A program made the position numbers and the translations under genes. Positions 1 to 17,081 of a stretch of 35,708 bases of DNA are shown piece after piece. The DNA is taken from NCBI GenBank assembly GCA_004524595.1, contig SDOA01000031.1:1-35708 (forward strand). Direction: 5' to 3'. Origin of the DNA: Candidatus Thorarchaeota archaeon (GTDB taxonomy: Archaea; Asgardarchaeota; Thorarchaeia; Thorarchaeales; Thorarchaeaceae). Every line of letters starts with the position of its first letter. Position 1 is the stretch's first letter. Below the pieces are notes generated by a model. It was not told the DNA's origin, made no database searches, and saw only the letters and a program-made list of their open reading frames with translations.

Positions 1-365
1 GTGTCATCATCAATGACATCATCATGGATCAGACTTGCTGTCTGTACAAACTCTGTGGCAACTGCGAAAGGAAGTGCTTCGTTGAAACTGCCACCAACTG
101 CTTCACAGCTTAATGCAGTAAGAAGTGACCTGATATGCTTTCCTCCTGCTTGAAGCAGGTGTATTGCAGTATCATAGAGTATCTTTGGCTCTCCTCTCTC
201 AGATTCAAAGACTCTGATTATCTCTTCATCAATGATTGCCAGACGTTTATTCAATTCCTTACTGGCAAGAAAATCTATCTTTGTCCTCTGAGATTGAAGA
301 GACCTATTCTCATTGTCATCTGAAGCGTTTTCCAAAACATCACTTTTTGTACTAGGATCATGCAT
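1..365 (-). CDS. Polyprenyl (geranylgeranyl-type) diphosphate synthase, N-terminal part, cut by window edge
   Basis: The reverse strand reads from an ATG at 365 to the window edge without a stop, giving about 121 residues. The end of the visible part has the trans-prenyltransferase signatures: a GGKHIR segment (isopentenyl diphosphate binding) and, about 40 residues later, SLIHDDVIDDD, the first aspartate-rich DDxxD-type motif. The family condenses isopentenyl diphosphate units into C15-C50 isoprenyl diphosphates for archaeal lipids or quinone tails; chain length cannot be judged without the rest. A GGTGA sequence lies about 8 nt before the ATG, and an in-frame TAG upstream limits any extension. 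The first 40 residues are polar and poorly conserved. It lies downstream of the GlcF-like gene on the same strand after a gap of about 100 bp. Confidence 0.85.
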   Translation of the reverse strand, partial: MHDPSTKSDVLENASDDNENRSLQSQRTKIDFLASKELNKRLAIIDEEIIRVFESERGEPKILYDTAIHLLQAGGKHIRSLLTALSCEAVGGSFNEALPFAVATEFVQTASLIHDDVIDDD

Positions 366-466
366 TAACAGAATCACCAATTGAAGCTTCAGATGTACTA
401 TATTTTTCAGTCTAAAAAATACCTTAAAGCACTTACTTTCTGACACACATCTACTCTGATCTTGAA

Positions 467-1690
467 CTACTCATATATCTCATCAAGTCCATCCCAAGTT
501 AGCCCCATTGCCTCTGCTACAAGGACTGCAAGATCTTTAACTGTTTTATTGCATCCTGATTGTGGTAATTGATCCTTCATGTATTCAACACAGGAGGGAC
601 ATCCTGAAGCTACAACATCCGCCTGAGTTCTCTCTATATCTTCTGCTTTTAGCTTACCAATATCTGATGCAAACTGATTATCGAAGGCTCTGAGTACACC
701 ACCACTACCACAGCAATAACAATTATCTCTGTTATGAGGTAGTTCTTCAAATTCGATACCTGGCAGGGCTGCTATCACATCTCGGGGTTCATTATAGAAA
801 CCAGAATTACGACCAGCATCGCAACCATCGTGATAGGTCAGTTTGATATTGAGAGGTTTTGTGAACTTGATCTTTCCTTGCTGAATGAGTTCTCTCAAGT
901 ATGAGTATCCATAGACTATCTCAAAACCATGATCAATGTTCAGGAACTCCTTGTATTCATGAGCCCACATCTTGTAACAGCCAGGGCAGTTTGTGATTAT
1001 TCTCTTTACACCAAGTTCTTTGTATTTCTCGATGTTATGTTCTGCAAGTGTGCGTGCTCCTTCAAAATCTCCAGTCATGATCAGAGGCGCACCACAGCAG
1101 TACTCCTCTTCGCCAAGGACAGTGTAATCTTCACCTATTTTGTCCATGATGAGCGTTGTAGCAATTGTTGCTTGAATTGAAACTCCTCTGTAAGATGATG
1201 AACAGCCAAAAAAGAACGCAGTTTCAGCAGGCTTGCTCTGTCTATCAATGAGTTCGTCTTCATTTGGGGTCCAATATGACCATCCTTCGATTCTATCCAT
1301 CTGGGACTGTCCTTGGATATTGCATGATTTGAGGAGGGTTTCTTTGGCCATATTCATTGCTTCTGGCCACATCCCTCTTTTCATGAATTCACCTCTGAGG
1401 ATCTGATAGATCTTTACAAAGGGAATATCCGTCTGACAAATTTCTTCACAACCGCCACATAACGTACAACCAAAGATTGCATCTTTCAGTCCTTCTAATC
1501 CGTCTGTAGCGCTAATCCTTCCCTGAATGAGCCCCCGAGCTAGTAACATCTTTCCCCTCCCAGAATAGCTATCTACTCGCTTTACCTTATAGGTTGGACA
1601 TGCACCATGCCCAATCTGACAATAGCTACACTGAGCACATATGTAGGGATATTCTTCTAATCCGTATTTCTTCAATGCCGGAAATTCCAT
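467..1690 (-). CDS. GlcF/HdrD-like iron-sulfur protein with two CCG domains
   Basis: A 407-residue soluble protein. The N-terminus has two [4Fe-4S] motifs: C18, C21, C24, C31 (with a few extra residues before the last Cys) and C75, C78, C81, C85. Two complete cysteine-rich CCG domains follow (first CCG in EEYCCGAP with NCPGC; second in NCYCCGSGG with GCPSC), the type that holds the non-canonical cubane clusters of HdrB. The layout matches GlcF of glycolate oxidase, LldE/DLD-associated proteins and HdrD, which pass electrons between a GlcD-type flavoprotein and a membrane acceptor. I chose the ATG at 1690, preceded by GGAGAAG at 9 nt; the frame could extend to 1804, but those 38 residues lack family similarity. 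It diverges from the GlcD-NuoB fusion gene, so I infer the two proteins work together. Substrate unknown. Confidence 0.85.
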   Translation of the reverse strand: MEFPALKKYGLEEYPYICAQCSYCQIGHGACPTYKVKRVDSYSGRGKMLLARGLIQGRISATDGLEGLKDAIFGCTLCGGCEEICQTDIPFVKIYQILRGEFMKRGMWPEAMNMAKETLLKSCNIQGQSQMDRIEGWSYWTPNEDELIDRQSKPAETAFFFGCSSSYRGVSIQATIATTLIMDKIGEDYTVLGEEEYCCGAPLIMTGDFEGARTLAEHNIEKYKELGVKRIITNCPGCYKMWAHEYKEFLNIDHGFEIVYGYSYLRELIQQGKIKFTKPLNIKLTYHDGCDAGRNSGFYNEPRDVIAALPGIEFEELPHNRDNCYCCGSGGVLRAFDNQFASDIGKLKAEDIERTQADVVASGCPSCVEYMKDQLPQSGCNKTVKDLAVLVAEAMGLTWDGLDEIYE

Positions 1691-1819
1691 TGAGCACTTC
1701 TCCAGAGATTGGATTAGGACGACTATGTATTCTGTCCAATTAGGAGCAGCGTTACCTAGCCGCCTTAAAACCTTTCCACACGACATTGATATTAAACTGC
1801 ACAAGCCTCTGGCTCGCTA

Positions 1820-1828: not shown

Positions 1829-1889
1829 GTAGCTAGGCATCCTCGCCTCTCAACACCCCTCCTTTGGTTTAGTGCCGGAGAGATATTTC

Positions 1890-3830
1890 ATGGGACTCAA
1901 ACAGAAACAGATTGATCATCTCAAAGAGATCTTTGGAGACCGAGTAGTCACCGCCAAGCATGAACTGTTTCTGCAGTCAATGGATGTAGGTTCTCTGCCA
2001 AAACAAGTAGGTTGGTTGATGAACCTAAAACCTGATGTTGTTGTCCAACCTCTAATACCTGAAGAAATTCGTTCTCTTTATCGATTTGCCAATGCAGAAA
2101 AAATTCCTCTTGTTCCGAGAGGTGCGGGGACTTCAGGTTATGGCGGAGCCATTCCAAGAAAGGGTGGAATTGTTGTTGATATGCGTCGTATGGACAATAT
2201 CCTCTCTATCGATGAAGAGAACCTTACAGTTGTTGTTGAACCAGGAATCTGCTGGTCAAATCTCCAGCTAGAACTGAATCGTCTTGGTCTTGATTTACGA
2301 TGTTATCCATCTTCTGCACTCTCAGCTACAGTAGGTGGATGGGTAGCTCAAGGCGGGGACGGGATTGGCAGTCTAAAGTATGGAACAATCAACGAAAACT
2401 GTGTTGAGTTCGAAGTAGTTCTTCCAAATGAAAGGATAATCCGAACGAGTGATACAGACTTATTCTGTGATACAGAGGGTATTCTGGGGATCATAACTAA
2501 AGTGACCTTGAAGATTAAGCCCCTTACTAAGGTCAAGGCCTTTGTTTCAAGCTTTCCAGAGAACTATCTTATGAATCTGGCAATTGAGAAGATTCTAGAA
2601 GATGGTCCTCTCCCATATACCATAAAGTTCGAGGAATCTAAATATACTGATTTGAAGAAGTCAGTTTGGGAAGAGGATTGGAAGTTCCCCTATCCAGTCC
2701 ATCACTGCACTATCATGGTCGTCTATGAGGGTGATGAGGAAGAGATTAAGGTCGGTGCTGAGGTCATTCGCCGAGTGACTGAAGAACACAAAGGCATCAA
2801 TTATGATGACCATGTGGGAGAACATGAGTGGCACGAGAGGTTCTATCCAATGCGAATTAAAAAGGCTGGACCTACACTAGTGGTTGGACAGGCTTTTGCG
2901 CCTCTCGAAAATCTGAGTGCGATCTTTGATGACTTCCAATTCGAACAGGCTTCTGCAAAAGCTGGCATTGATGGTTATGTGAATTCCAAGAATGCTGTGA
3001 CTATGATGGGGTATTTCTTAGAGGATGAGCGACGCGCATTCTACATGCTCTCATGGTCACAGAGCTTTGTAATCTTCAAGATAGCACAACGTCATGGCGG
3101 TCACCCGCATTCAACAGGAATTTGGTTTGCCAACTATGCTCACATTTACTTTGGTAAGGAGCGCCTAGCGAGGATTCGCGCAGCCAAGCTTAAGTGGGAT
3201 AGAAAGGAGATATCTAATCCTGGCAAGATTTTTGCCTACTGGCTACCATTTATGCTTCGAATTGGCAAGTATTTCATGTGGTTAGGTTTCGACATGTTCC
3301 GGAATGGATTTGGTCGGATTGCTCCTATTCTCTTAAAATGGCTACAGAATGTCCCGCCTGTAAAATGGTTGTTGCGATGGGGTCGCGCTCATAGTCCGTG
3401 GCCTATTCAATATGGTCTTGGATGTTGTATGGTTGATGGAGCTGCGGCAGTAGCCTCACGCTGGGATATTGAAAGATTTGGAATGCTCCCCCTCTTTGGA
3501 CCAAGACAGACAGATGTCCTTTGGATATCCGGTTCTCTCACGAAGAAGATGGCACCAAGACTTCGTAGAATCTACGAACAAATGCCGGAACCAAAATTTG
3601 TTATCTCTTATGGACAGTGTGCTGCCTCTGGTGGAATGTTTTACGATGGATATTCATTGGTTACACCTGCTGAAAAAGTTGTACCTGTTGATGTCTATAT
3701 ACCCGGGTGTCCACCCAAACCTGCGGACTTTGTTAGAGCACATCTGATACTACAGAATAAGATTCGAGCTGGTACTACCCACTGGCAACGCCGCTATGAA
3801 AACCAGGATGCAATGGGGTTGATTCAATAG
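1890..3830 (+). CDS. Fusion of GlcD-type FAD dehydrogenase with complex I subunit NuoB
   Basis: One uninterrupted 646-residue frame. Residues about 35-215 are a PCMH-type FAD domain (PRGAGTSGYGGAIP; GGWVAQGGDGIGSLKYG). Residues about 220-450 form the FAD-oxidase cap and end in the typical ISNPGKIF. A hydrophobic, basic linker (about 450-495) leads into a full NuoB domain: tandem Cys 512-513 in YGLGCCMVDG, Cys577 in YGQCAASGG and Cys607 in PGCPPKP, the four ligands of cluster N2 at standard spacing. The ATG at 1890 has GGAGAG 7 nt upstream; a GTG at 1872 would add six residues. The HxGDGN motif of GlcD/lactate dehydrogenases is absent (GYVNSKN sits in its place), so the substrate is uncertain. 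The complex I operon downstream lacks nuoB, nuoE, nuoF and nuoG. I infer that this protein feeds electrons from a flavin donor directly to N2. Confidence 0.9.
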   Translation: MGLKQKQIDHLKEIFGDRVVTAKHELFLQSMDVGSLPKQVGWLMNLKPDVVVQPLIPEEIRSLYRFANAEKIPLVPRGAGTSGYGGAIPRKGGIVVDMRRMDNILSIDEENLTVVVEPGICWSNLQLELNRLGLDLRCYPSSALSATVGGWVAQGGDGIGSLKYGTINENCVEFEVVLPNERIIRTSDTDLFCDTEGILGIITKVTLKIKPLTKVKAFVSSFPENYLMNLAIEKILEDGPLPYTIKFEESKYTDLKKSVWEEDWKFPYPVHHCTIMVVYEGDEEEIKVGAEVIRRVTEEHKGINYDDHVGEHEWHERFYPMRIKKAGPTLVVGQAFAPLENLSAIFDDFQFEQASAKAGIDGYVNSKNAVTMMGYFLEDERRAFYMLSWSQSFVIFKIAQRHGGHPHSTGIWFANYAHIYFGKERLARIRAAKLKWDRKEISNPGKIFAYWLPFMLRIGKYFMWLGFDMFRNGFGRIAPILLKWLQNVPPVKWLLRWGRAHSPWPIQYGLGCCMVDGAAAVASRWDIERFGMLPLFGPRQTDVLWISGSLTKKMAPRLRRIYEQMPEPKFVISYGQCAASGGMFYDGYSLVTPAEKVVPVDVYIPGCPPKPADFVRAHLILQNKIRAGTTHWQRRYENQDAMGLIQ

Positions 3831-4364
3831 ATGAGATTACGAGAAGACAGTGATCCATATTGTTTGCTCTGGATTGGATTGCTCCTTCTGGGGTCGTACT
3901 ATGCGAACTTTGGCTATATGATGTGGACTAGTGCATCAGCTGCTGCAGATTTCTTGATTAGTGTTAACTTCTTCTACATACTTCTTCTTCTTGCCTTCCC
4001 GCCTTTGATGGCGCTCCTTTTTACTGGTTATCTACGACCTTCACATGGAAAGGCTAAGATGTCCATGCTCGGTCCATCTGTCATTTCAGCATTGTTTTTC
4101 GTAATAGTCTCCAATCTGGTTTCTTTAAACACAGATATTCTTGGCAATCTCATATTCTTCTCTGGATGGGGAATAGGTAGTTCACTCCTAATAGCTGGTG
4201 GACTCTCAATAATGCAAACATTAAGACAGAGTACGAGTCCGGGTATTCTAGATGTTGCATCCCTTCACTATGGTCCACCTAAATCTGTTCCAGAACCTGT
4301 TGTTGAAGAAATACTTACTTCAGAAACCGTCAAATCTGATGACACTCGTTCTGAAGTTAATTAA
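3831..4364 (+). CDS. Small membrane protein coupled to the GlcD-NuoB fusion
   Basis: A 177-residue protein that I do not recognise. Its ATG directly follows the TAG of the fusion gene with no spacing, suggesting translational coupling; only a weak GGGGTTGA-like site precedes it. It shows about four hydrophobic segments (near residues 12-32, 42-64, 80-102 and 106-126), then a polar, Pro/Glu-rich cytosolic tail of about 45 residues. There is no signal peptide cleavage site or metal motif. Its position makes it a candidate membrane anchor or accessory subunit of the unusual complex I; this is inference from context. Its stop overlaps by 4 bp the stop of the convergent gene at 4361-4717. Confidence 0.7.
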   Translation: MRLREDSDPYCLLWIGLLLLGSYYANFGYMMWTSASAAADFLISVNFFYILLLLAFPPLMALLFTGYLRPSHGKAKMSMLGPSVISALFFVIVSNLVSLNTDILGNLIFFSGWGIGSSLLIAGGLSIMQTLRQSTSPGILDVASLHYGPPKSVPEPVVEEILTSETVKSDDTRSEVN

Positions 4365-4977: not shown

Positions 4978-5421
4978 ATGAGATTATTCATCGATTTTAT
5001 CCCTGTACTTGTTTGGGCCGTACTGGCCATTGTGCTTGTAGTTGGTATGTTAGTAGGGTCTTGGATTCTCAGACCGCATGTTCTTCAGAATAGTGAAAAG
5101 ACCTCAAGTTATGAATGTGGTGAAGAACCAATTGGACCAGCGAGAATTGCCTATCCATATAATTACCTTGTTTATACGATTCTCTTTTTAGTTGTTGATG
5201 TCCTAGGAGCATTTCTTTGGCTGCTATCAGCATCTTCCTTTCGACTAAGTCCATCCGTTGTTTGGCAAGTGTTGTTATTTGTTCTATTACTATTAGGCGG
5301 ATTAGGGTATGCAATGAAGAGACTTCCCGAGACTTTCCTAAGTGGGCAAGAAACCTTGATACTTTACCAAGAAGCCAAAGCTGTTCAAGCTGAGCAAGAA
5401 AAACATACAGGAGGTCATTAA
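4978..5421 (+). CDS. nuoA: Complex I subunit A
   Basis: A 147-residue membrane subunit with three transmembrane helices, near the quinone channel at the junction of the two arms. Diagnostic is the YECGEEPIGPARI segment in the first loop, which matches the NuoA consensus. In the second helix the usual DxE pair reads VVDVLGAF: Asp74 is kept but the conserved Glu is Leu76. The ATG has GGAGG 13 nt upstream. It is the first gene of a compact operon in the order A-J-K-C-D-H-I-M-L-M-N; two bases separate it from nuoJ. The C-terminal tail of about 25 residues is hydrophilic and longer than in most bacterial NuoA. Confidence 0.92.
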   Translation: MRLFIDFIPVLVWAVLAIVLVVGMLVGSWILRPHVLQNSEKTSSYECGEEPIGPARIAYPYNYLVYTILFLVVDVLGAFLWLLSASSFRLSPSVVWQVLLFVLLLLGGLGYAMKRLPETFLSGQETLILYQEAKAVQAEQEKHTGGH

Positions 5422-5423
5422 GT

Positions 5424-6074
5424 ATGTTACAGTTTGAAGTCTGGTTTGAGCAAGCTGAGTTTCTTGTTATCGCATGCATAGTTATTTTCCTTGCTTACCT
5501 TGCTTTAGAGCACAAAGATATTGTCTACGCAGCATTCTTTTTCGGTTTCATGGCTTCATTCGTAGCAGGATTCTTCTTACTTCTTGAAGCACCTTTCATT
5601 GCTGGTATGCAAATCGCAGTGTACACCGGTGGAATCAGTGCGCTCATCATCTTCGCAGTCCTCCTCTTACCGCGTGCACAAGATTCCTCTCTTGAGATCT
5701 TTGCATCTCCAAGACGTCAACGGGCAGGATTGGTACTCTCTGCTCTAGTTGGCTCTCTTTCAGCTGCACTTGCCTTAGTATTTCCATGGTACGAGACCTT
5801 CTCTCCAACGACTCCTCCACTAGAGGATAATTTAGAATTATTGGCGAAATGGCTATGGTCTGATCATGGTATCTATGTTCAGATGGTTGCTCTTATACTC
5901 CTTACAGCAATAGTAGGGTCTATTGCAATTCTTAAGATGGAGAAAGCTGAACGTCTTGATCCAATCGTGGGTACATTTGGTATTGAATCAATTGATGAAC
6001 CCATTGATGATATTCCTTCAAAGGTTGAAGAAGACAAACCCTCGAATTCCGAGCAGGAGGATGATATTTCATGA
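5424..6074 (+). CDS. nuoJ: Complex I subunit J
   Basis: A 216-residue membrane subunit with five predicted helices. The family signature is VYTGGISALIIFAVLLLP, the third helix (TM3) that contains the pi-bulge and rotates in the coupling mechanism. The ATG is preceded by GGAGGT at 8 nt. The C-terminal 45 residues are acidic and cytosolic. Its stop overlaps the nuoK start (ATGA). NuoJ normally sits between NuoA, K and H in the membrane arm. Placing J and K right after A is a rearrangement relative to the common A-B-C-D-H-I-J-K order; J and K occupy the slot where nuoB normally lies. Confidence 0.92.
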   Translation: MLQFEVWFEQAEFLVIACIVIFLAYLALEHKDIVYAAFFFGFMASFVAGFFLLLEAPFIAGMQIAVYTGGISALIIFAVLLLPRAQDSSLEIFASPRRQRAGLVLSALVGSLSAALALVFPWYETFSPTTPPLEDNLELLAKWLWSDHGIYVQMVALILLTAIVGSIAILKMEKAERLDPIVGTFGIESIDEPIDDIPSKVEEDKPSNSEQEDDIS

Positions 6075-6391
6075 TCCCGCTCTCTTGGTACCTTGTTGTT
6101 GCCTTTATAATGATAGGTCTCGGTGCCTATGGAATGATGGTCAAGAGAAACCTGATTCGTATACTGATTGCTGCAGAAATAATGGGAAACGGCGTGAATA
6201 TTGCCTTAGTTGCTGTTTCCATTTATAACCCTATTTTTTCCTTCACAGGTCAAGGTCTTCTCATTCTCGTTATATCTGTTGCAGCTGCCCATACCGCTCT
6301 TGCGATGGTTCTCATGCTTATGTACCACAGACGTTACGGTACTGTAGATCTTGGACAGCCAATCTTACCGGAGGATGATATTAATGGTTGA
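6071..6391 (+). CDS. nuoK: Complex I subunit K
   Basis: A 106-residue subunit with three transmembrane helices, the first part of the proton channel beside NuoN. Glu36 in the second helix (LIAAEIMGN) is conserved. In the third helix, ISVAAAHTALAMVL carries His74 where E. coli and most homologues have Glu72 (AAAE). Both residues are normally needed for full pumping, so the change is notable. GGAGGATG precedes the ATG, which overlaps the nuoJ stop. The 3' end overlaps the nuoC start. Confidence 0.92.
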   Translation: MIPLSWYLVVAFIMIGLGAYGMMVKRNLIRILIAAEIMGNGVNIALVAVSIYNPIFSFTGQGLLILVISVAAAHTALAMVLMLMYHRRYGTVDLGQPILPEDDING

Positions 6392-6896
6392 TGCATTAAC
6401 TCTGGGACGAATAATTATTAACAAATATCCCGATGTTTCATCTAAACCACTTGTGGGCAATAAAATAGAGCTTATTGTTCCATCAACTGAGATTCGTGAT
6501 GTTCTTATTATGATTGAGGAGAACGTTCCTGATGCTTTACCTGAAGCAGCCTTTGGAATAGATTTAGAGAACGACAAGTATGAAATCATCTACATCATCT
6601 GGTCGCATGAATCAAAACTGCTCTGTCAGCTTCGTGTAGCTTTAGATGATGAGAATCCTGAGGTTGATACTGTGAGTGATATCTTCCCGGGGTTTGAATG
6701 GCATGAACGAGAAACTTCAGAGATGTTTGGTATAACCTTTAAAAATCACCCTGACATGCGTCCTCTCCTACTACCTGATGAACTAGTCGGACAGTACCCC
6801 ATGAGAAAACGGTTCTTAACAGATAGAAGTAGGATTGATGAGACTGGTCTTACACCTCCACGACCAAGATCAACAAGTGGAGGTGGGTCATCATGA
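6384..6896 (+). CDS. nuoC: Complex I subunit C (30-kDa type)
   Basis: A 170-residue soluble subunit of the connecting module. The hallmark is the segment from EWHERETSEMFGI through NHPDMRPLLLPDE to YPMRKRF, the NuoC/NdhJ consensus that packs against NuoD and NuoB. It is a separate gene, not the CD fusion of E. coli. I chose the ATG at 6384, 9 nt after GGAGG; an in-frame ATG at 6375 is too close to that site. It overlaps nuoK by 8 bp and nuoD by 4 bp (ATGA), indicating tight translational coupling. Confidence 0.92.
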   Translation: MVDALTLGRIIINKYPDVSSKPLVGNKIELIVPSTEIRDVLIMIEENVPDALPEAAFGIDLENDKYEIIYIIWSHESKLLCQLRVALDDENPEVDTVSDIFPGFEWHERETSEMFGITFKNHPDMRPLLLPDELVGQYPMRKRFLTDRSRIDETGLTPPRPRSTSGGGSS

Positions 6897-8029
6897 AGTC
6901 GGATATTCTTGAAGAAGCAAGTGAGATCTGGTTTGGCCCTCAACATGTCAGTGCACATGGTTGGGCTACGAAACTCACTCTTGTTGGTGACTATATTGTT
7001 GAGTGTGATCCAAATGCAGGATATTTCCATCGTTCAGCAGAGAAGTGCCTTGAGTTCCGGAATTTCAGACAGGGTTCTATGATTCTTGAACGAATTTGCA
7101 TGATAGAGGCTTTCATATCTGAGTATCCATATGTGGCTGCAGTAGAGAAGATGGTTGATCTGGAGATACCCGCGCGTGCGAAAATAATGCGCACAATAAT
7201 GATCGAGTTAAACCGAATTCATTCTCTCCAGTTTTGGTGGGGCCAGTTTGCTGGTGAGCTCGGGCTCTTTGCGATGCTTCTCTGGCCGTGGGTCGATAGA
7301 GAGTATACACTTGATGCCTTCGAAGAACTAACAGGTTCTCGTCACTCAGTTTCATATAACACTCCAGGTGGTGTGAAGTATGATTTCACGCCTCAATTCT
7401 TAGAGAAGATGGAGGTGGCATTATCTCGAGTTGAAGAGAGAATACCCGTCTTTAGAGATATGTTTCAAAGAAGTCCTACCTTTAGATTACGTGCTGAGGG
7501 AGTGGGTCATTATACTGCAAAACAGGGGCTCAAGTGGGGCCTCAGTGGTCCAAATATCAAAGCCTGTGGGATTCCCATGGACCTACGAAAGGATGACCCT
7601 GATCCGAATTTAGCTTATGATCTCATTGATTGGAAAGTTCCTATTATAATAAACAAGCAACATCCTGGAGAATGTGATGCCTACGATAGACTTCTTCAGA
7701 GGTTCAAAGAGATAGAAACTTCAATCGATATTATACGCAAACTCCTGCCTCTCCTTCCTGATGGTGATATTGTTGATCCTAAGGCGCGCGCTAAAGTTAA
7801 CCGACTCCCTGAGGCTGAGGGATACGGAAGGATTGAAGGTACTCGTGGAATCACAACCGTATGGTTGAAGACATTTGATAAAGCTCAGACTCCTTATAGG
7901 GCAAAGATACGTGGACCATGCTTCGCTTCTTACTATGCTCTAAAACATATAGTCCCTGGTGCTCGTTTTGCTGATTTTCCCGCAATCTTTGGGAGTCTAG
8001 ACCCCTACCCAGGATGGTGGGATCGCTAG
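6893..8029 (+). CDS. nuoD: Complex I subunit D (49-kDa type), atypical quinone site
   Basis: A 378-residue homologue of the [NiFe]-hydrogenase large subunit that forms the quinone pocket with NuoB. Seen: GPQHVSAHG (quinone-loop His), GYFHRSAEK, LNRIHS, RAEGVGHY, PEAEGYGRIEG and the C-terminal LDPYPGWWDR. Only one Cys (Cys69, in ERICMIE) remains of the first hydrogenase CxxC pair, and the second pair is absent (DPY), so no NiFe site is possible. The conserved Tyr of complex I (Y87 in Thermus, in a PYxxR motif) appears replaced by Ile in MILERIC. It starts with GGAGGTG upstream and overlaps nuoC. Not fused to nuoC. Confidence 0.92.
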   Translation: MKSDILEEASEIWFGPQHVSAHGWATKLTLVGDYIVECDPNAGYFHRSAEKCLEFRNFRQGSMILERICMIEAFISEYPYVAAVEKMVDLEIPARAKIMRTIMIELNRIHSLQFWWGQFAGELGLFAMLLWPWVDREYTLDAFEELTGSRHSVSYNTPGGVKYDFTPQFLEKMEVALSRVEERIPVFRDMFQRSPTFRLRAEGVGHYTAKQGLKWGLSGPNIKACGIPMDLRKDDPDPNLAYDLIDWKVPIIINKQHPGECDAYDRLLQRFKEIETSIDIIRKLLPLLPDGDIVDPKARAKVNRLPEAEGYGRIEGTRGITTVWLKTFDKAQTPYRAKIRGPCFASYYALKHIVPGARFADFPAIFGSLDPYPGWWDR

Positions 8030-8042: not shown

Positions 8043-9188
8043 GTGCAGTTCGATTTCTTTGCCTGGCTTGATGGAATATGGAACTGGTTTATAGGAGTCC
8101 TACTCTGGTTCTGGGGTCTTGTCGAATGGTTATTTGCATGGGTCATAGATGTCCTTAATGCTATTTGGGCTATTATTATCTTGCCAGAGAACTTCATGTT
8201 TCTATTCAGATCTCTCATATTCCCAGGATTGGTCTTCATTGTTTTAGCTCTTATCTTTACAATTTGGTTTACACGTAAAACTTGGGCAAGAATCCAAGAC
8301 CGACGCGGTCCAACACACTTGGGCAAATATGGTGGTCTCCAGCTGTTTGCAGACGCAATCAAACTCATGGGAAAAGAAACAATCATCCCTGACAAAGCAA
8401 AACGGTGGGCATACAGAATTCTTCCGTCACTATTGCTATTGATTGTTCTTCTACCCTTTGCATTCATTCCTTGGGACCCCATTTGGAATATTTTGGGACA
8501 TCCTGCTTTTCCAGATTTATCAGTTAGTCTCGTTCTAGTCTTTGCAATTCTTACTGCAGTCCCTGTACTATCACTACTTATTGGGTGGGTTTCTGGATCC
8601 AAGTATTCACTAATTGGTGGATTTCGAGCTGCAAACAACCAGTTTGCCTCAGAGATACCCATGGTCGTTTCATCAATTGGGCCAGCTATGCTTGCAGGTT
8701 CTCTCAGTTTGTTTGGAATTGTTCAAGCTCAGACCAATATCTGGTATATTGTGCTTCTCCCAGTGAGCTTTGCTACATTCTTGGTAGCTGCCATTGCATC
8801 TGTTGGAACATTCCCCTTCGATGCTCCTGTTGCAGACTCTGAGATTATTTTTGGTTGGAGAACTGAGCTATCAGGTATTTATTTCACACTTGTCTATTTT
8901 GCGGAATTTGCTGAACAAATTCTCTACAGCGCCCTCATGGTTGCTCTCTTCTTTGGTGGATTCAATGGGCTTCCCTTCTTACCTGGTGTTGTCAACTTTG
9001 CAATCAAATGGCTTGTAGTCTTCTTCTTCTTCATAGTGGTGACTTCTTCCTTCTACAGGATACGACAGGATCAGATTGTCCATCTATGCTGGAAGTATCT
9101 ACTACCATTGTCGATACTGAATGTTGTCGTGGTGATGTTTGCTCTAGTCTACATTCCAGGACTTGTGCCACTTGTCATAGGAGGTTGA
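8043..9188 (+). CDS. nuoH: Complex I subunit H
   Basis: A 381-residue membrane subunit with eight or more helices, lining the quinone entry and the E-channel. Signatures: DRRGPTHLGKYGGLQLFAD followed by KLMGKE, and FPFDAPVADSEIIFGWRTEL followed by the AEFAEQ helix. The usual PEAE reads PVAD, keeping one acid. The N-terminus has about 50 residues more than E. coli NuoH, rich in Trp and Phe, with an additional hydrophobic segment. The start is GTG at 8043, 9 nt after GGAGG; the ATG at 8038 is in another frame. It lies 13 bp after nuoD and 4 bp before nuoI. Confidence 0.92.
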   Translation: MQFDFFAWLDGIWNWFIGVLLWFWGLVEWLFAWVIDVLNAIWAIIILPENFMFLFRSLIFPGLVFIVLALIFTIWFTRKTWARIQDRRGPTHLGKYGGLQLFADAIKLMGKETIIPDKAKRWAYRILPSLLLLIVLLPFAFIPWDPIWNILGHPAFPDLSVSLVLVFAILTAVPVLSLLIGWVSGSKYSLIGGFRAANNQFASEIPMVVSSIGPAMLAGSLSLFGIVQAQTNIWYIVLLPVSFATFLVAAIASVGTFPFDAPVADSEIIFGWRTELSGIYFTLVYFAEFAEQILYSALMVALFFGGFNGLPFLPGVVNFAIKWLVVFFFFIVVTSSFYRIRQDQIVHLCWKYLLPLSILNVVVVMFALVYIPGLVPLVIGG

Positions 9189-9192
9189 TGTG

Positions 9193-9624
9193 ATGGGATT
9201 CCTTAGTACTCTTGGCGACATCTTTAGAATCTTGAAACATGTATTCCGTCAAGCATTTCGCAGACCCTTTACGTACTTCTACCCATACGAGGACAGACCA
9301 TATCCTGAGCGGACTCGTGGTAGACACATACACATTCGTGAGAACTGCACAGCTTGCGCTCAGTGTGTCAGAGCCTGTCCTGTGGTCGCTATTCGTATAG
9401 ATAAAGAAGATCGTAAGTTTGAGAAAGATGCAGCTCTGTACTTTGATTATACTCGGTGCATCTTTTGTGGAGATTGCGTCGCTGTCTGTAGATTTTATGC
9501 GTTGTATCACACGAAAATTGTTGATATCTCTGAAGGCGATAAAGAAGATCTCCTCTATGGTCCAGACAAAATTACCACACTCGACAGAGACCCGTTAGAA
9601 TGGCGTGGAGGGAGGTTCCGCTAA
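9193..9624 (+). CDS. nuoI: Complex I subunit I (2x[4Fe-4S] ferredoxin type)
   Basis: A 143-residue peripheral subunit with two complete [4Fe-4S] motifs, CTACAQCVRACP and CIFCGDCVAVC, holding clusters N6a and N6b, which relay electrons to N2 in NuoB. The second motif ends CRFYAL instead of CP. The N-terminus is basic and amphipathic, as usual for attachment near NuoH. The ATG at 9193 follows GGAGG by 8 nt; a GTG directly before it is also in frame. Its stop overlaps the next ATG by one base. With NuoE, F and G missing, the donor to these clusters is open; the GlcF-like protein or a ferredoxin are candidates. Confidence 0.93.
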   Translation: MGFLSTLGDIFRILKHVFRQAFRRPFTYFYPYEDRPYPERTRGRHIHIRENCTACAQCVRACPVVAIRIDKEDRKFEKDAALYFDYTRCIFCGDCVAVCRFYALYHTKIVDISEGDKEDLLYGPDKITTLDRDPLEWRGGRFR

Positions 9625-11102
9625 TGGTATTTGGAATTCCTTTCATGGCTCTTTCATTAGCTGTAATGTTTATTGGTGGTCTGCTAATCTATGTTTTAAG
9701 AAGCAATCTGAAAGAGAGTGCAGGAAATGTTGCAGTAGGAATCTCACTCTTTGCAACGATCCTCATGATTCCTCCTTTCTATGAACTTCTAACTAAAGGT
9801 TCTTCTATTGAGACCGTCATCTGGTCGAACATCCTCGAACCTTTTGGTCTATTTCTCGACCCTGTAGCATTTCCAATCACGTTTGCTGTTGTCATCCTAG
9901 GTTTTCTCTCGGTAGTCTACGCAGTTGGATACACTGAGCATACAGAGAATAAACCGACCTTCTTTGCCAACCAGCTCTTCTTCATCATGGGTATGACCTG
10001 GGTCACTCTTGCAACCAATATGATTGAATTTTTTATAGCTTGGGAGATCATGTTAGTGCCGAGCTATTTCCTCATCCTCTTCTGGGGATTCCCTGAAACC
10101 AGAAAGCGAACAGCACTCAAGTTTTGGCTTTATACTCAATCTGGAGCTGTATGTATCCTGATTGGTTTTGGTTTACTCTATGCTCAGGGTGGTTCTTTCG
10201 TGCTGGCTAACATCGTGACTAATGGTGAACTGATTTTCAAGGTTATTTTCATCCTTCTTGCAGCCGGCTTTCTCGTGAAGATGGCAGTCTTTCCGATCCA
10301 TTGGTGGCTCCCTCCTGTTCATGCGGAGGCTCCAACTCCAATCTCAGTGCTCTTGTCTGGAGCAATGATTGAAACTGGCGCATATGCCCTTGTCCGTTTT
10401 GGCATGTTGACTTTGAATGAGGCTGCAATCTCTCTCTCCCTCTGGGTTGCCGCCCTCGGAGTCATCACGATGTTCTATGGAGGGTTCATGGCACTAGCTC
10501 AGCTAGACATCAAACGACTCCTTGCTTACTCATCTGTTTCTCAGATGGGGTATGTCCTTTTTGCATTGGGGACAGTGACAGTAGCTGGTGTATCTGGTGG
10601 TATGTTCCATCTTATCAACCATGCATTCTCCAAAGGTCTCTTGTTTATGACTGCTGGAGCTGTAATCCATCAGACTGGTCTACGTGATATCAAGAAGATG
10701 GGAGGTCTATCAAATAAGATGCCAATCACTGCATTCGCAGCGGCAATTGGTATGATGAGCATTGCTGGAAGTCCTCCCCTCTCAGGCTTTGCCAGCGAGT
10801 GGATGATGTTCCTTGGAGGATTCAATGCAGCTATATCAGGAGCTGGTCTTAACATGGGTTTTCTCATATTGACAATTCTGGCTGTTGCGAGTTCAATTCT
10901 CACCGCTGCATATATGCTTCGATTCTTCTGGAGAGTCTTTTTAGGTACACATCCAGAGGAGCTTGAAGATGTGAAAGAGAGTCCCAACTCCATGACCATC
11001 CCTATGATTATTCTTGGTGTACTCATTGTGATCTTTGGAATATTCCCGAGCTTGGCACTTGATGTCATAGTTCCGGCGTTTGCAGGTATTACAGGTCCAT
11101 AA
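9624..11102 (+). CDS. nuoM: Antiporter-like subunit, NuoM family, first copy (M1)
   Basis: A 492-residue polytopic protein of the proton-translocating antiporter family (about 14 helices). Key residues: TM5 Glu in FIAWEIMLVPSY, TM7 Lys in LVKMAVFPIHWWLP, DIKRLLAYSS, and TM12 Glu in SGFASEW. The TM8 Lys, present in the other three antiporter subunits here, is Glu250 (SGAMIETGAYAL). The ATG at 9624 overlaps the nuoI stop (TAATG) and follows GGAGG by 8 nt; an upstream in-frame ATG at 9600 lies inside nuoI. Unusually it precedes nuoL; a canonical nuoM lies after nuoL, so this is an extra pump module or a divergent homologue. Confidence 0.85.
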   Translation: MVFGIPFMALSLAVMFIGGLLIYVLRSNLKESAGNVAVGISLFATILMIPPFYELLTKGSSIETVIWSNILEPFGLFLDPVAFPITFAVVILGFLSVVYAVGYTEHTENKPTFFANQLFFIMGMTWVTLATNMIEFFIAWEIMLVPSYFLILFWGFPETRKRTALKFWLYTQSGAVCILIGFGLLYAQGGSFVLANIVTNGELIFKVIFILLAAGFLVKMAVFPIHWWLPPVHAEAPTPISVLLSGAMIETGAYALVRFGMLTLNEAAISLSLWVAALGVITMFYGGFMALAQLDIKRLLAYSSVSQMGYVLFALGTVTVAGVSGGMFHLINHAFSKGLLFMTAGAVIHQTGLRDIKKMGGLSNKMPITAFAAAIGMMSIAGSPPLSGFASEWMMFLGGFNAAISGAGLNMGFLILTILAVASSILTAAYMLRFFWRVFLGTHPEELEDVKESPNSMTIPMIILGVLIVIFGIFPSLALDVIVPAFAGITGP

Positions 11103-11112
11103 GGTGATTATG

Positions 11113-13302
11113 ATGTTATTCGGCTTACCTTACTATCTCATCCTCGTAATCCCACTTGCAGGCTCACTATTTGTTCCTATCATTGGCAGATTCAATGAGA
11201 AACTTCGCGACTGGACTCCTGCAATCTTCATGGGAGTTTCAATGGTACTCTGCTGGTCTCTCCTAATGGATTTGGGAACAACACATATGCCACACTGGGA
11301 ATGGATCAATATCCCAGGGCTCTATGTCCCCTTTGAGATGCTACTGGATCCTCTATCAATCATTATGGCAATACTTTCAAGTACTCTCTGTTTTCTCATC
11401 TATGTTTATTCAACAGAGTACATGGCACATGAAGGTGACCGAAATCGCTTCTTCTTCCTGATGCTAGTCTTCGGTGGTGGAATGCTCACTCTAGTTTTGA
11501 GCAATAATTTACTGATTGCATTCATTGGCTGGGAGATTATGGGTTTTTGCAGCTATGGTCTAATTGGCTTCTGGAATGACAAAAGGAATCCTCCTGAAGA
11601 AGATCCACTTGGATACGAACAACATAATCCCTTACTAAAGTTTGAGACCGAAGGTGAATACAACACACACTGCGGAACAAAAGCCTTCATCGTCACAAGG
11701 GTCGGGGATGCTTTTATGCTGGGTGGTATTCTCCTTCTCTTCACATTTACTGGGTCCTTCCTCTTCACTGATCTAGCAAGCAATCTGAACGACTGGTGGG
11801 GGACCATGGCTGCGTGGGGTCTCTTGATTCCAGCACTAGTACTCATTTTTGCAGGCGCTATTGGAAAGTCTGGTCAGGCTCCCTTGCAGGTCTGGCTCCC
11901 TGAAGCCATGGCAGGTCCAACTTCCGTATCTGCATTGATTCATGCTGCTACCATGGTCAAGGCTGGTGTGTATATCAGTGCTAGATTCTTAGTGACAATC
12001 GTTGAAGCAACTTCAGGTCATGGTGAAGAGCATGTTACAGGATTTATACCATTGCAGATGACATTTGGTATCGAGATGGTTGTTTCCTTCTTCATCCTAG
12101 TTGCTGTGGTGGGAGGTATCACAGCTTTCATGACTGCCACAATGGGTATGGTTTCTAATGAGTTGAAACAGGTTCTTGCCTTTTCTACATTGAGCCAACT
12201 CGGTTATATGATCCTAGCTATCGGCACTAGCGGAATCCTTGCCCTCGATGGACACTACGAGCATGCTTACCTGAGTGGAGTCCTTCACATAGTAGCTCAT
12301 GGTGCTTTCAAAGCACTACTCTTCCTTGCTGCCGGTGGAGTCATTCATGCAGTACATACGAAGTATATGTCAAAGATGGGCGGACTAAAGAACTTCATGC
12401 CTTGGACCTATCGGGTCATGCTGATAGGTGTCTTGGCATTAGCCGGTATCCCGCCAATGTCTGGTTTCTGGTCAAAGGACTCCATCATTGAATACACGTA
12501 TGAACTTGCTACACACAATCTTATTGGACTGTTCTTGTTTGGATTAGCAGTGGCTGCTGTTGCATGTACTATCTTTTACAGTATCCGTCTTATGGGAATG
12601 GTCTTCCACGGAAAGCGACCCGAACATCACGGAGAGAACCATCATAATGAACCTCACGATCCTGGTCCTGCAATGATGATTCCATTATTTGTTCTTGCAG
12701 CCTTTACAATTGGGGCATTTCTTATCTTTCCATTCATTCAGACAATTATCTTTGCAGAGGGACCGATGACTGCTACACTATTCTTTGAGCTACTCACAGA
12801 GATGATCATGGTCAAGCTGACAATGCCGGGGCTTGTGCCTTTTGCAATCACAATTGGTGCACTGTTTCTTGGTGGTATTCCAGCTTATCTTATGTACATC
12901 AAGAATGCTGATACTCCAAATACGAGAATACCTGCACAAGGCATTCGTAGGGGAATCTACAACTTTCTGAAACATCGATGGTATATCAACGAGGGATACT
13001 ATTGGTTAGTTAATAAGTTCCTGCTATTTGCAGATCTCTGGAGAAGGGAGGTTGACGACAAGGTCATTGATGGTATCGATTTCAAATCCGCAGATGCTGC
13101 CCAGACCATCTCTAGGAAAGTGAGATGGTTTGATGATAATGTAGTGGATGGTTTTGCTGAAGGAATTTCTACAGCAAGTGTTGAAGCCTCAGAGATCGGA
13201 CTTGAGTCTCAGACTGGCAAAATCAACGACTATGTTGGAGTTGTGATTTTTGGCTTTGGGCTACTAATCATAATAGCCCTTTTATCATTGGGGGTGATCT
13301 AG
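11113..13302 (+). CDS. nuoL: Antiporter-like subunit L with extended lateral helix
   Basis: A 729-residue distal-arm subunit, longer than E. coli NuoL (613). Seen: FIGWEIMGFCSY (TM5 Glu), GKSGQAPLQVWLPEAMAGPT (TM7 Lys), ATMVKAGVY (TM8 Lys), LAFSTLSQLGYM, and SGFWSKDS (TM12 Lys). Extra length lies in an acidic loop near residues 155-185, a His-rich loop near 510-520 (HHGENHHNE) and the C-terminal lateral helix. From YYWLVNKF to QTGKINDYV the helix region is about 80 residues against about 50 in E. coli, with two similar segments (DDKVIDG and DDNVVDG). This fits an arm lengthened by one subunit. The ATG at 11113 fits the AAGGTGAT site better than the ATG at 11110. Confidence 0.92.
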   Translation: MLFGLPYYLILVIPLAGSLFVPIIGRFNEKLRDWTPAIFMGVSMVLCWSLLMDLGTTHMPHWEWINIPGLYVPFEMLLDPLSIIMAILSSTLCFLIYVYSTEYMAHEGDRNRFFFLMLVFGGGMLTLVLSNNLLIAFIGWEIMGFCSYGLIGFWNDKRNPPEEDPLGYEQHNPLLKFETEGEYNTHCGTKAFIVTRVGDAFMLGGILLLFTFTGSFLFTDLASNLNDWWGTMAAWGLLIPALVLIFAGAIGKSGQAPLQVWLPEAMAGPTSVSALIHAATMVKAGVYISARFLVTIVEATSGHGEEHVTGFIPLQMTFGIEMVVSFFILVAVVGGITAFMTATMGMVSNELKQVLAFSTLSQLGYMILAIGTSGILALDGHYEHAYLSGVLHIVAHGAFKALLFLAAGGVIHAVHTKYMSKMGGLKNFMPWTYRVMLIGVLALAGIPPMSGFWSKDSIIEYTYELATHNLIGLFLFGLAVAAVACTIFYSIRLMGMVFHGKRPEHHGENHHNEPHDPGPAMMIPLFVLAAFTIGAFLIFPFIQTIIFAEGPMTATLFFELLTEMIMVKLTMPGLVPFAITIGALFLGGIPAYLMYIKNADTPNTRIPAQGIRRGIYNFLKHRWYINEGYYWLVNKFLLFADLWRREVDDKVIDGIDFKSADAAQTISRKVRWFDDNVVDGFAEGISTASVEASEIGLESQTGKINDYVGVVIFGFGLLIIIALLSLGVI

Positions 13303-14886
13303 ATGCAACTAGGTTTAGCTTCTGATTTGATTACTGCACTTCCTATGAATATTCTCGTATTCATGCTTCTAGCTCCCCTCATTGGTGCTCTTATTGCATA
13401 CCTGATTGGAGCAAAAGGGGCACGTGCAATTACGCTCCTTATCACTACAGTTGAGCTAGGTCTATCGTTACTATTGATTCTCGGAACACCCTCTCTTGGC
13501 TCAGATGCTGGTGGAATGAGTCATACAATTAGCTATCTCTTAGCTCGACTTGGCACCACGTCCGAAGCACCAGTCTTCGAGATTATTCTTGGTGTTGATG
13601 GTGTTTCTATGGTAATGATTCTGCTGTCAAATCTTGTTATCTGGATTGCAGCTATAAGTTCAAATCATATCAAGACATCTGAGGGGCTCTACTATATGCT
13701 CTTTCTAGTGCTTCAAACAGGGCTTCTAGGGGTCTTCATGGCATTAGATTTGATTGGATTTTTTATATGGTGGGAGCTGGTCTTAATCCCGATGTTCTTC
13801 ATAATCGGGCTATGGGGCGAACAAGGTTCCCGTCATGCTGCTGTTAAATTCTTCATCTATACCCATCTTGGTTCAGCAGTAATGTTAGTCGGATTCTTCT
13901 ATCTATACTTCCAATCTTCTATGATTAATGCGATTGGTATTGCAACTGAAGTACCAACTTTTAGTATGGTCGCACTACGAAATCTTGGTCTGGACCCTTG
14001 GATTCAGATTGGTTTTGCTCTCGCTCTCTTCATGGGAGCTGGTGTCAAGTTACCCGTCTTTCCTTTGCACAACTGGTTACCATGGGCACATGTGAAGGCT
14101 CCAACCCCCGGTTCTGTTATCCTTGCAGGCATCCTTCTGAAGATGGGTGGTTACGCTTTCATTCGTCTAGGTCTTTGGATGATTCCTGATGCTATTGCAA
14201 GGTTAGCTATTCCATTTGCGATTATTGCGATATTCACCTGCATTTATGCTGCATTCACAGCAATGGCTCAGACGGACATGAAGAGTCTGGTTGCTTATAC
14301 TTCAATCAATCATATGTCTTGGGTTCTTCTTGGTGTCGCAGCATATGCCGCTGGCGCTAGTTCTGCTGACCCGATAATTCAAGCAGCTGCGAATCTTGCT
14401 ATTCAGGGTTCAATTTTCATGATGTTCTCCCACGGAACGATCATATCTGTCATGTTCATCGTAGCAGGACAGCTCAAATATAACACGGGAACAAGGGAGA
14501 TTCCCGAAATCAAGGGTCTCATGACAAAAGCACCTAAACTATCTGCTGTGCTTATTCTCGCAACACTAGCAGCTTTTGGGCTTCCTGGATTCAGTGGATT
14601 TATTGCTGAGGCTCTCATTATGTTTGGCTCTATTGTTGTCTATTCCTGGTCCGCGTTGATTGGTCTTGGAATATTCATCACAGTAGGATACATGCTTTGG
14701 ATGCTCAATCGAATAGTCTTTAGTGATGTAGATCCAGAGAAAGAAGTGTCTGAAGCACCGTGGAACGATCTCATTGCGCCTATTCTAATGCTCATACCCG
14801 TGATTCTTCTGGGAATCTGGCCTGATTTAATTCTTGATTTCGTAAAACCTGTCATTGATGCTATGTTAGCAGGAGGTCTACCTTAA
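13303..14886 (+). CDS. nuoM: Antiporter-like subunit, NuoM family, second copy (M2)
   Basis: A 527-residue polytopic protein and the more canonical NuoM of the two: FIWWELVLIP (TM5 Glu), AGVKLPVFPLHNWLPWAH (TM7 Lys), PGSVILAGILLKMGGY (TM8 Lys), AQTDMKSLVAYTSINHMSW and SGFIAEALIMFGS (TM12 Glu). The ATG at 13303 directly follows the nuoL TAG, with GGTGAT 4-9 nt upstream. It overlaps the nuoN start by one base. Together with M1, L and N it gives four antiporter modules instead of three. An extra Ala/Ser-rich loop sits around residues 345-365. Confidence 0.92.
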   Translation: MQLGLASDLITALPMNILVFMLLAPLIGALIAYLIGAKGARAITLLITTVELGLSLLLILGTPSLGSDAGGMSHTISYLLARLGTTSEAPVFEIILGVDGVSMVMILLSNLVIWIAAISSNHIKTSEGLYYMLFLVLQTGLLGVFMALDLIGFFIWWELVLIPMFFIIGLWGEQGSRHAAVKFFIYTHLGSAVMLVGFFYLYFQSSMINAIGIATEVPTFSMVALRNLGLDPWIQIGFALALFMGAGVKLPVFPLHNWLPWAHVKAPTPGSVILAGILLKMGGYAFIRLGLWMIPDAIARLAIPFAIIAIFTCIYAAFTAMAQTDMKSLVAYTSINHMSWVLLGVAAYAAGASSADPIIQAAANLAIQGSIFMMFSHGTIISVMFIVAGQLKYNTGTREIPEIKGLMTKAPKLSAVLILATLAAFGLPGFSGFIAEALIMFGSIVVYSWSALIGLGIFITVGYMLWMLNRIVFSDVDPEKEVSEAPWNDLIAPILMLIPVILLGIWPDLILDFVKPVIDAMLAGGLP

Positions 14887-16391
14887 TGATGCAACTTGAT
14901 ATTATAGCTGAATTCATTCGAAATGTATTATCTCCCGTGAGAGAATTTCTGCAGTTATATGTTCCAACTGAATGGATAATGTCACTTCCTGCAATCACTC
15001 TTGTTGCTTTTGGATTAATTTCTCTGGTAGTTGGAATGCGTTACAATCCACTTGCAGTCAGTTTTCTGGGTGTTGTAGTAGCTACACTCCAGATGATACT
15101 ATTTGAACCAATCGTGCTGTCTGGTTACTCCTTTGGCACGTTATTTGTCAGAGATGCGTTTACAGACTTTTTCATTTACATAGTCTTAATTGTCGCATTT
15201 CTTGTCTTGATGTCATCGACCCTCTGGGGTGGTGATAAAGGAACCTATAACTTCCTCTTGATGATCTCTTTTGCTGGTGCACTCTGGGTAGTTATGGCGA
15301 CAGATCTTGTTGCATTATTTTTAGCATGGGAAGTGATGAGTACACCAACATACGTACTTGTTGCGTTAAGCCCGCGACGTGAAGCTGTTGATGGAGCTAC
15401 AAAGTACTTTGTTATCGGTCTCTTGGCCACGATGCTCATGCTCTTTGGCATCGCACTCACGTATGGTGTTGCAGGAACAACAGACCTAAGCGCTCTTAGT
15501 GCATATGTGAACACAGTATGGTCCTCACCAACAGGTAATGAACCAGCAGCTTATACTTTGCTCCTTGCTATGGTGCTATTCATTGTATCCTTCGGGTTCA
15601 AGGTAGGAATATTTCCTGGATGGCAATGGGTGCCAGATGCTTATGCTAGTGCAGATGGAAATGTGACTGCATATCTTGCAGGCGGTTCAAAGAAGACTGG
15701 TGTAAGTGCTCTCCTGCGAATTCTCATGATTGGGTTCTTCTTTGCCAAAACTGAATGGGCACCCCTAATTGCTGGGGTGGCAATTCTAACTATGGTGATT
15801 GGAAATGTCTTGGCACTAGCACAAAAAGACATCATGAGGATGCTTGCCTACTCGAGCATTGCGATGATGGGATATCTCTTCATAGGTGTCGCAGCAGGGA
15901 ACGAGATTGGTCTTGCTGCTGCTGGATTCCATGCATTCACTCATGCCATCATGAAAACTGCTGCTTTCATCCTCATTTGGACAATGTCCTATAAACTCAC
16001 AAAGAGGATCACTTATGATGATCTTGCTGGACTTAGTAGACGCGCTCCAGTTGCTTCTGCAATGTTTGCCATTCTGATGTTATCTCTTGCTGGTATGCCA
16101 CTGACTGTCGGTTTCTGGTCGAAACTGGTCTTATTCCAGAGCGCGGTAGTTGCGAATATGTGGTGGCTTGCACTCATTGGTCTACTTAATTCTGTATTCT
16201 CACTTGGATATTATCTTCGTGTACTGAAATACACCTATATGGAGGAACCAAAAGATGAATCTAAATTGACTCTTCCAATAATCCCTATGATTGCAGCTGC
16301 CATCTGCGTCGTAGCAGTGATTGCTTTGTTTATCTTTCCGAATGTAATTCTAGATTATGCATTTGCTGCTGCTCAAACATTCTTTCCATAG
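14886..16391 (+). CDS. nuoN: Antiporter-like subunit N
   Basis: A 501-residue polytopic protein and the last gene of the operon. Motifs: FLAWEVMSTPTY (TM5 Glu), FGFKVGIFPGWQWVPDAYA (TM7 Lys), AGGSKKTGVSALLR (TM8 Lys), AQKDIMRMLAYSSIAMMGY, GFHAFTHAIMKTAAF and VGFWSKLVLF (TM12 Lys), typical of NuoN/NdhB next to NuoK. The start ATG at 14886 overlaps the M2 stop and lies 9 nt after GGAGGT; the following ATG (14889) is less likely. The gene ends 60 bp before a convergent GTPase gene. No nuoE/F/G follows. Confidence 0.92.
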   Translation: MMQLDIIAEFIRNVLSPVREFLQLYVPTEWIMSLPAITLVAFGLISLVVGMRYNPLAVSFLGVVVATLQMILFEPIVLSGYSFGTLFVRDAFTDFFIYIVLIVAFLVLMSSTLWGGDKGTYNFLLMISFAGALWVVMATDLVALFLAWEVMSTPTYVLVALSPRREAVDGATKYFVIGLLATMLMLFGIALTYGVAGTTDLSALSAYVNTVWSSPTGNEPAAYTLLLAMVLFIVSFGFKVGIFPGWQWVPDAYASADGNVTAYLAGGSKKTGVSALLRILMIGFFFAKTEWAPLIAGVAILTMVIGNVLALAQKDIMRMLAYSSIAMMGYLFIGVAAGNEIGLAAAGFHAFTHAIMKTAAFILIWTMSYKLTKRITYDDLAGLSRRAPVASAMFAILMLSLAGMPLTVGFWSKLVLFQSAVVANMWWLALIGLLNSVFSLGYYLRVLKYTYMEEPKDESKLTLPIIPMIAAAICVVAVIALFIFPNVILDYAFAAAQTFFP

Positions 16392-16997: not shown

Positions 16998-17081
16998 CAA
17001 GACTCATACACCTTTAAGAATGAATTAGCTTGTAATTGATGATTTAATCCTTCTGGGATATATATCCATAAAATCAATTGT

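Follow-up and report, generated by a model that had tools for sequence, protein, structure and literature searches.

The window, a stretch of 35,708 nucleotides of DNA from a Candidatus Thorarchaeota archaeon, holds a complex I operon that begins with a gene joining a flavoprotein to NuoB (Table 1). The open reading frame (1872..3830) opens with GTG, and the ATG at 1890 gives a protein of 646 residues read in one frame, without an internal stop, from 1890 to 3830 of the plus strand (ORF list and translation). Along this chain follow a FAD_binding_4/FAD-oxidase_C protein, a helical linker and NuoB. Pfam searches placed FAD_binding_4 at residues 48-187 (E 1.8e-37), FAD-oxidase_C at residues 231-447 (E 1.8e-8) and Oxidored_q6 at residues 513-617 (E 7.1e-25). 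The NuoB part scored 177.6 bits against TIGR01957 (nuoB_fam; NCBI cut-off 142.7) and matched the B subunits of solved complex I with a best E-value of 2.9e-43. Its N2 cysteines, residues 512, 513, 577 and 607, are kept in 44/44 rows with a NuoB part in alignment A2, whose other 26 of 70 rows are FAD-only or end early. An earlier note on this DNA had described a single frame joining a FAD protein to a full NuoB with all four N2 cysteines, and both points hold.

Nine residues of the FAD part (W314, R317, P320, K324, D379, E380, R381, W412 and K433) are invariant in all 70 FAD rows of alignment A2. Fold searches gave matches for the FAD part alone, and the identity of the NuoB part rests on sequence. 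A first structure model, built on alignment A2, gave a pLDDT below 50 for most NuoB residues because few NuoBs were present in that alignment; a second one, built on alignment A5, reached a mean pLDDT of 85.0 and a pTM of 0.73, with helices at residues 451-472, 474-486 and 489-500 (pLDDT about 64-80). The best 19-residue Kyte-Doolittle mean between residues 441 and 500 is 1.03. The linker is thus weakly hydrophobic and therefore probably amphipathic, with no clear transmembrane helix.

Table 1. Genes and protein parts at the fusion locus, in positions of the window
Feature	Positions	Strand	Basis
Polyprenyl synthetase, cut by window edge	3..446	-	83% to L001 polyprenyl synthetase (PF00348)
Fe-S protein, Fer4_8 and two CCG domains, divergent from the fusion	467..1804	-	Pfam
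Fusion, FAD_binding_4 and FAD-oxidase_C part (residues 1-455)	1890..3254	+	
Fusion, helical linker (residues 456-490)	3255..3359	+	Hydropathy and structure model
Fusion, NuoB part (residues 491-646), four N2 cysteines	3360..3827	+	Pfam, TIGR01957, alignment
U177, 177 aa, three hydrophobic stretches, adjoins fusion	3831..4364	+	Hydropathy, conserved position in loci
NuoA	4978..5421	+	Pfam
NuoJ	5424..6074	+	Pfam
NuoK	6071..6391	+	Pfam
NuoC	6351..6896	+	Pfam
NuoD, without Ni ligands and without canonical quinone tyrosine (ERICM replaces DRLDY)	6893..8029	+	
NuoH	8043..9188	+	Pfam
NuoI, two [4Fe-4S] motifs	9190..9624	+	Pfam, alignment
First NuoM-like antiporter subunit	9600..11102	+	TIGR01972, 307.3 bits (cut-off 263.8)
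NuoL	11080..13302	+	TIGR01974, 459.8 bits (cut-off 407.5)
Second NuoM-like antiporter subunit	13303..14886	+	TIGR01972, 409.5 bits (cut-off 263.8)
NuoN-like antiporter subunit	14886..16391	+	TIGR01770, 305.7 bits (just below cut-off 332.6)

The fusion is real, old within its group and under constraint. PF01565 and PF01058 occur together in at least 46 homologues among the best 120 of 1302 matches; the two-domain homologues listed are 73-100% identical over most of their length, and the database entries among the matches listed label it simply as NuoB or as a hypothetical protein. Thirty genome loci were compared, 26 labelled Thorarchaeota, two Lokiarchaeota and two only 'archaeon', in agreement with an Asgard origin; 29 carry the fusion and one (L029) is FAD-only. 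Contig ends or starts cut the fusions of L004, L027 and L030. A six-frame search for the same architecture in other Asgard genomes, as the earlier note had suggested, showed that 31 of 227 have the FAD and NuoB parts in one long frame of 540-719 aa. Twenty-seven of the 29 fusion loci read without a stop before the end; the stops in L021 and L030 arose because reading started at residues 14 and 107 and passed the natural end, and both frames are stop-free in the six-frame search. No stop or frameshift lies at the FAD/NuoB junction in any of the 29 loci. That we are dealing with an assembly or annotation artefact, or with a decayed flavin domain, is extremely improbable: an assembly artefact is rejected because the same frame recurs in those 31 genomes, which come from independent projects, and decay is contradicted by the nine invariant residues and by a dN of 0.04-0.22 in the FAD part over 11 loci, while dS is too saturated in 30 of 33 comparisons, where it is undefined and dN/dS unusable.

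Behind the fusion the gene order is U177-A-J-K-C-D-H-I-M-L-M-N, so that the A, B, C, D, H, I, J, K, L, M and N genes all lie in one operon. Within the limits of their contigs, the other loci show the same order and likewise lack a further nuoB, a lack that had been pointed out for the window, where Pfam agrees. U177 matched no Pfam or NCBIfam family; in L011, L013, L019 and L025 extra DNA parts it from NuoA. Between U177 and nuoA, the window (4361-4717), L001, L002 and L003 have an ORF of 118-147 aa on the minus strand, either a genuine small gene or a chance frame. The two NuoM-like subunits bring the antiporter-like subunits to four, a set that resembles the '2M' type of complex I with extra pumping capacity. 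A Ras-family GTPase gene (16452-17000, minus strand) directly follows nuoN, likewise in L068, L069 and L070, and is not found at that place in L071. All eight cluster cysteines of NuoI are present in 22/22 rows; its clusters are intact, and ferredoxin-type entry is therefore kept. The Pfam search found no NuoF in the window's operon, and NuoF (PF01512) occurs in three of 15 genomes searched, G026 being among the 12 without. The idea that the flavoprotein bypasses most of the Fe-S chain is thus not supported in that form, as NuoI retains its clusters and NuoEFG is simply absent from the operon. It is highly probable that the 646-residue fusion serves as the N2 (NuoB) subunit of a complex I lacking the NADH module, and we consider it quite likely, from gene order and conservation, that the fused protein is physically present in that complex.

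A second separate nuoB in the same genome, which the earlier note had named as a refutation, was sought in the single-contig chromosome of G026 (CP070761.1), and none of complex I type was found. A search with the NuoB part returned only the fusion there, and Pfam two further PF01058 proteins beside hydrogenase-type genes, whose neighbours look HdrA/MvhD-type and group 3 hydrogenase-like, judged by their sequences and CxxC positions. A further NuoB-like frame of 148-204 aa occurs in nine of the 30 genomes. The five neighbourhoods that were read (L031, L032, L034, L035 and L036) each have their own C- and/or D- and H-type genes and, as read from their sequences, are separate hydrogenase-like clusters, with both nickel CxxC motifs in the D subunits of L031 and L036; these five were rejected as a second complex I nuoB. 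This classification covers those five, with L033, L037, L038, L039 and several other PF01058 matches outside it. By eye, several of the five adjoin 2-hydroxyacyl-CoA dehydratase-like and oxoacid:ferredoxin oxidoreductase-like genes. NuoB frames of 668-671 aa in other Asgard genomes had the look of rival fusions; those that were read (L051 and L052) proved to be NuoI-B-D and not FAD fusions, and such single frames occur in part in L054 and L056. That of L051 adjoins a NuoC-like gene and a 676-aa molybdopterin oxidoreductase-like gene, and these neighbours point to formate-hydrogenlyase-like clusters in other Asgard genomes. A NuoA-B fusion (371 aa, one frame) is found in G197 (L053:7972-9084), beside a NuoC-D fusion.

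The FAD half is a GlcD relative by fold, and it is not shown as a GlcD-type enzyme. Fold searches assign it to the D-lactate/2-hydroxyacid dehydrogenases, with the PCMH/FAD-oxidase_C fold present; LctD, the lactate dehydrogenase of Ldh-EtfAB (7qh2), and mouse LDHD (8jdb and others) share the fold and the FAD-binding part, and the ether-lipid enzyme AGPS matches as well. Unlike LctD and LDHD, the fusion lacks the GH-x6-H and EHG motifs, which we take to be the substrate/metal site of GlcD/LDHD/LctD, and forms a subfamily of its own with W314, R317, K324, DER 379-381 and W412. The earlier designation 'GlcD-type' therefore stands for the fold and falls for the substrate site. Four FAD proteins of more distant relationship likewise gave no match to the motif pattern, which thus marks an absence and not a special trait. 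The same subfamily is fused to NrfD, a membrane quinone-type protein, in P0059 (Hydrothermarchaeota, 867 aa), which is another membrane link of these FAD proteins. Genomes of this group hold many FAD-oxidase candidates, for instance 5 to 18 per fused genome, and some linkages may therefore be due to chance.

The divergent neighbour of the fusion is likely the partner of the FAD half. Its gene probably starts at an internal ATG near 1690, giving 407 aa as in its relatives. The protein fits the HdrB/HdrD/GlcF type, with two CX~34CCX~36CXXC motifs and two ferredoxin motifs; the eight ferredoxin-type cysteines are kept in 33/33 rows, and no ungapped row departs from either CCG motif except for one V at position 328. 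A CCG gene lies within 10 kb of the fusion or FAD gene in 27 of the 30 loci (kilobases away in L008 and L023), and in the three without one (L014, L017 and L030) the upstream sequence extends to 2.6 kb at most. In P0054, P0056, P0091, P0113 and P0120, FAD_binding_4/FAD-oxidase_C, Fer4_8 and CCG, the same set, are combined in a single chain; there FAD is fused to CCG, whereas here it is fused to NuoB and the CCG protein has its own gene. From this context we judge it fairly likely that the FAD and CCG proteins act together. Polyprenyl synthetase (16), UbiA (14) and geranylgeranyl-reductase-like (GGR; 12) genes are neighbours among the 30 loci, many of whose contigs are too short to show them. 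These are also archaeal-lipid enzymes.

The FAD/CCG pair is also found unfused near complex I genes. One contig of G208 (L063) carries nuoL-nuoM-nuoN-...-FAD-CCG-amine-oxidase-like-UbiA-GGR-polyprenyl synthetase, and G207 (L062) has the same order; the FAD gene of L063 is unfused, with a C-terminal hydrophobic stretch of its own. In the NuoB tree the fused NuoBs are sister to standalone NuoBs (100/100) and far from the G205/G207 type, and in the FAD tree the fused clade lies apart from the G207/G208 proteins, some forks being weak (90/87). With both halves apart from these types, the links between FAD/CCG and complex I may be independent, and an association that has perhaps arisen more than once argues for a functional link. 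In G031, of a third lineage (L050 and L061), two FAD-oxidase/CCG pairs share a contig with nuoN, nuoJ, nuoA and nuoB. Its standalone nuoB is 61% identical to the fused NuoB; the similarity of the pairs to their Thorarchaeal counterparts is just 29-35%, and chance may have placed them near the nuo genes.

In L029 (G029), a FAD gene (57-59% identical) lies with a CCG gene, without NuoB and the complex I operon, and the only PF00346 match of G029 is a hydrogenase-type NuoD; the pair can thus act without N2. The flanks are collinear with the window, with CCG/UbiA/polyprenyl synthetase/GGR on one side and homologues of the window genes 20905, 22340, 23274 and 24352 on the other. At its C-terminus the L029 FAD protein has a PPLKW segment that resembles the PPVKW of the fusion, and this segment aligns with the N-terminal extension that standalone NuoBs carry. 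We lean towards an origin of L029 by deletion of NuoB and the operon and not towards an ancestral FAD-only state. The order nuoN-Ras-...-20905 is common to the window, L068 and L070, and a deletion is not proven because L069 and L071 lack it.

NuoD bears on what the complex reduces. Of the two positions that we take to be quinone-site residues, the histidine is kept and the tyrosine has become methionine in 26/26 Thorarchaeal rows, so that the complex cannot be classed as a proven quinone reductase. The tyrosine is also missing in L057 and L059 (two rows from other lineages) and in P0182, P0184 and P0186, relatives outside the fused group. The nickel CxxC motifs of [NiFe] group 4 hydrogenases are absent from the window's NuoD; among solved structures, its top match is an MBS/MBH-type subunit from Pyrococcus (6u8y, E 1.2e-55), presumably of the sulfur-reducing MBS complex. 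MqnA/D was found in none of 15 genomes and in one of the 227 of the Asgard set; MenD reached its cut-off in none of 11 genomes, three of which gave weak matches. With these standard menaquinone genes not found, the carrier is hypothetical. That NrfD was found in just one of 18 genomes counts against a tidy quinone story. In the part of a published reconstruction considered here, Sifarchaeia and Jordarchaeia have a near-complete menaquinone pathway (PMC9723677), and other pathway families may therefore have been missed in our genomes.

The same part of that reconstruction describes, as a hypothesis for Sifarchaeia and Jordarchaeia, an Fpo-like 11-subunit complex I without NuoEFG, with the same A-D and H-N set, no NADH module and a two-cluster NuoI; ferredoxin is proposed as its donor, and ferredoxin and menaquinone are hypotheses for Asgard complex I (PMC9723677). 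As far as the type is described there, the Thorarchaeal complex differs in the FAD enzyme on NuoB, a fourth antiporter-like subunit, the lost NuoD tyrosine and the additional membrane protein U177. The archaeal complex I fusions reported in the main text of a survey that includes Thorarchaeota are B-C and B-C-D, which join NuoB to complex I subunits and not, as here, to a FAD enzyme; leaving its supplementary tables aside, that main text contains neither FAD nor NuoB as a word (PMC11237513). The MBS and MBH complexes (6u8y and 6cfw) likewise have a NuoD-like subunit without the quinone tyrosine and a ferredoxin-type entry, whereas the present operon has a full NuoA/J/K/L/M/N arm, a complex-I-type NuoB, no Ni ligands and a FAD module. 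We found no description of a FAD-NuoB protein, or of a complex I built this way, in the literature searched, a scope outside which subscription papers and preprints fall; the impression of novelty in the earlier note agrees with this. That account was incomplete: it recognized the fusion and missed the divergent Fer4/CCG gene and the loss of the NuoD tyrosine.

In known complex I, NuoB has its N-terminus close to both membrane and quinone cavity, and this position together with a helical, probably amphipathic linker would bring the flavoenzyme close to the lipid carrier or to N2. On balance, we favor a reading in which the fusion tethers a FAD/CCG redox module at the N2/carrier end of complex I and not at its NADH end. 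NuoB would then be the N2 subunit of a complex I devoid of the NADH module, with a second redox module on its N-terminus; the FAD protein, of a subfamily that would have lost the metal site of 2-hydroxyacid dehydrogenases, would most likely work with its Fer4/CCG neighbor. Ferredoxin would most likely deliver electrons at NuoI, and FAD/CCG would exchange electrons with the same N2/lipid-carrier site, either supplying it as a dehydrogenase or, with lower probability, withdrawing electrons from it as an oxidant. The chances of input via FAD/CCG come close to even, and those of output are appreciably lower. Several points weigh against a tethered module: FAD/CCG persists in L029 without a complex I operon, the CCG gene is divergent and lies outside the operon, the carrier is hypothetical, and some of the gene linkages may be due to chance. 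A putative direct electron transfer from FAD to N2 is tentative, with somewhat less than even chances. It is possible, if doubtful, that the FAD and HdrD-like CCG proteins exchange electrons directly with N2 and that quinone chemistry is altered or replaced; ferredoxin (via NuoI) and the FAD/CCG substrate would in that case meet at one cluster, and complex I would be a ferredoxin:X oxidoreductase with a second substrate site built into NuoB.

Three other accounts draw on the same data. The covalent link to the N2 subunit, the LDHD/LctD-like fold and the absence of NuoF from 12 of 15 genomes searched would suit a 2-hydroxyacid-like dehydrogenase that passes electrons directly to N2 and replaces NuoEFG. 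We find this improbable in view of the missing GH-x6-H and EHG motifs, the kept NuoI clusters and the L029 pair without complex I; in addition, 2-hydroxyacid-type couples have a potential too high to drive full pumping into quinone. Electrons might instead leave through the flavoprotein, from ferredoxin over NuoI, N2 and FAD/CCG to a non-quinone acceptor, perhaps a disulfide, which would make the complex a ferredoxin:X reductase pump. The lost NuoD tyrosine (26/26 Thorarchaeal rows) and the two intact CCG motifs of the HdrB/HdrD kind leave room for such an exit, as do the relationship of NuoD to MBS/MBH-type 6u8y, the extra pump subunit and the failure to find the menaquinone genes tried. However, the NuoD histidine kept in the same 26 rows and the carrier-type prenyl genes nearby favor carrier chemistry, and the tyrosine is missing in P0182, P0184 and P0186, outside the fused group, as well; an exit is therefore conceivable and not probable. 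FAD/CCG could also be an enzyme of lipid or carrier biosynthesis, fused to NuoB only for membrane placement or co-assembly. The prenyl-type genes at 14 (UbiA), 12 (GGR) and 16 (polyprenyl synthetase) of 30 loci, their recurrence in L062/L063 and L029, the persistence of FAD/CCG without complex I in L029 and the AGPS match all agree with this, but it leaves unexplained both the fusion to the N2 subunit itself and the unfused pair behind nuoN in G207/G208, which makes it unlikely.

From a biological perspective, the usual picture of complex I is that of a fixed Q/P core which receives electrons from exchangeable modules at the NADH end (NuoEFG or FpoF) or from ferredoxin at NuoI. If, as in the reading that we favor, the flavoenzyme is a module in the N2 subunit, it would sit at the opposite end of the wire, beside the site where redox chemistry is coupled to pumping. 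The fusion thus suggests an unfamiliar route of electron entry to, or exit from, complex I. Its hosts are close relatives of eukaryotes, whose genomes did not yield the standard menaquinone genes for which we looked, and the fusion offers an experimental way to ask what Asgard complex I reduces or oxidizes.
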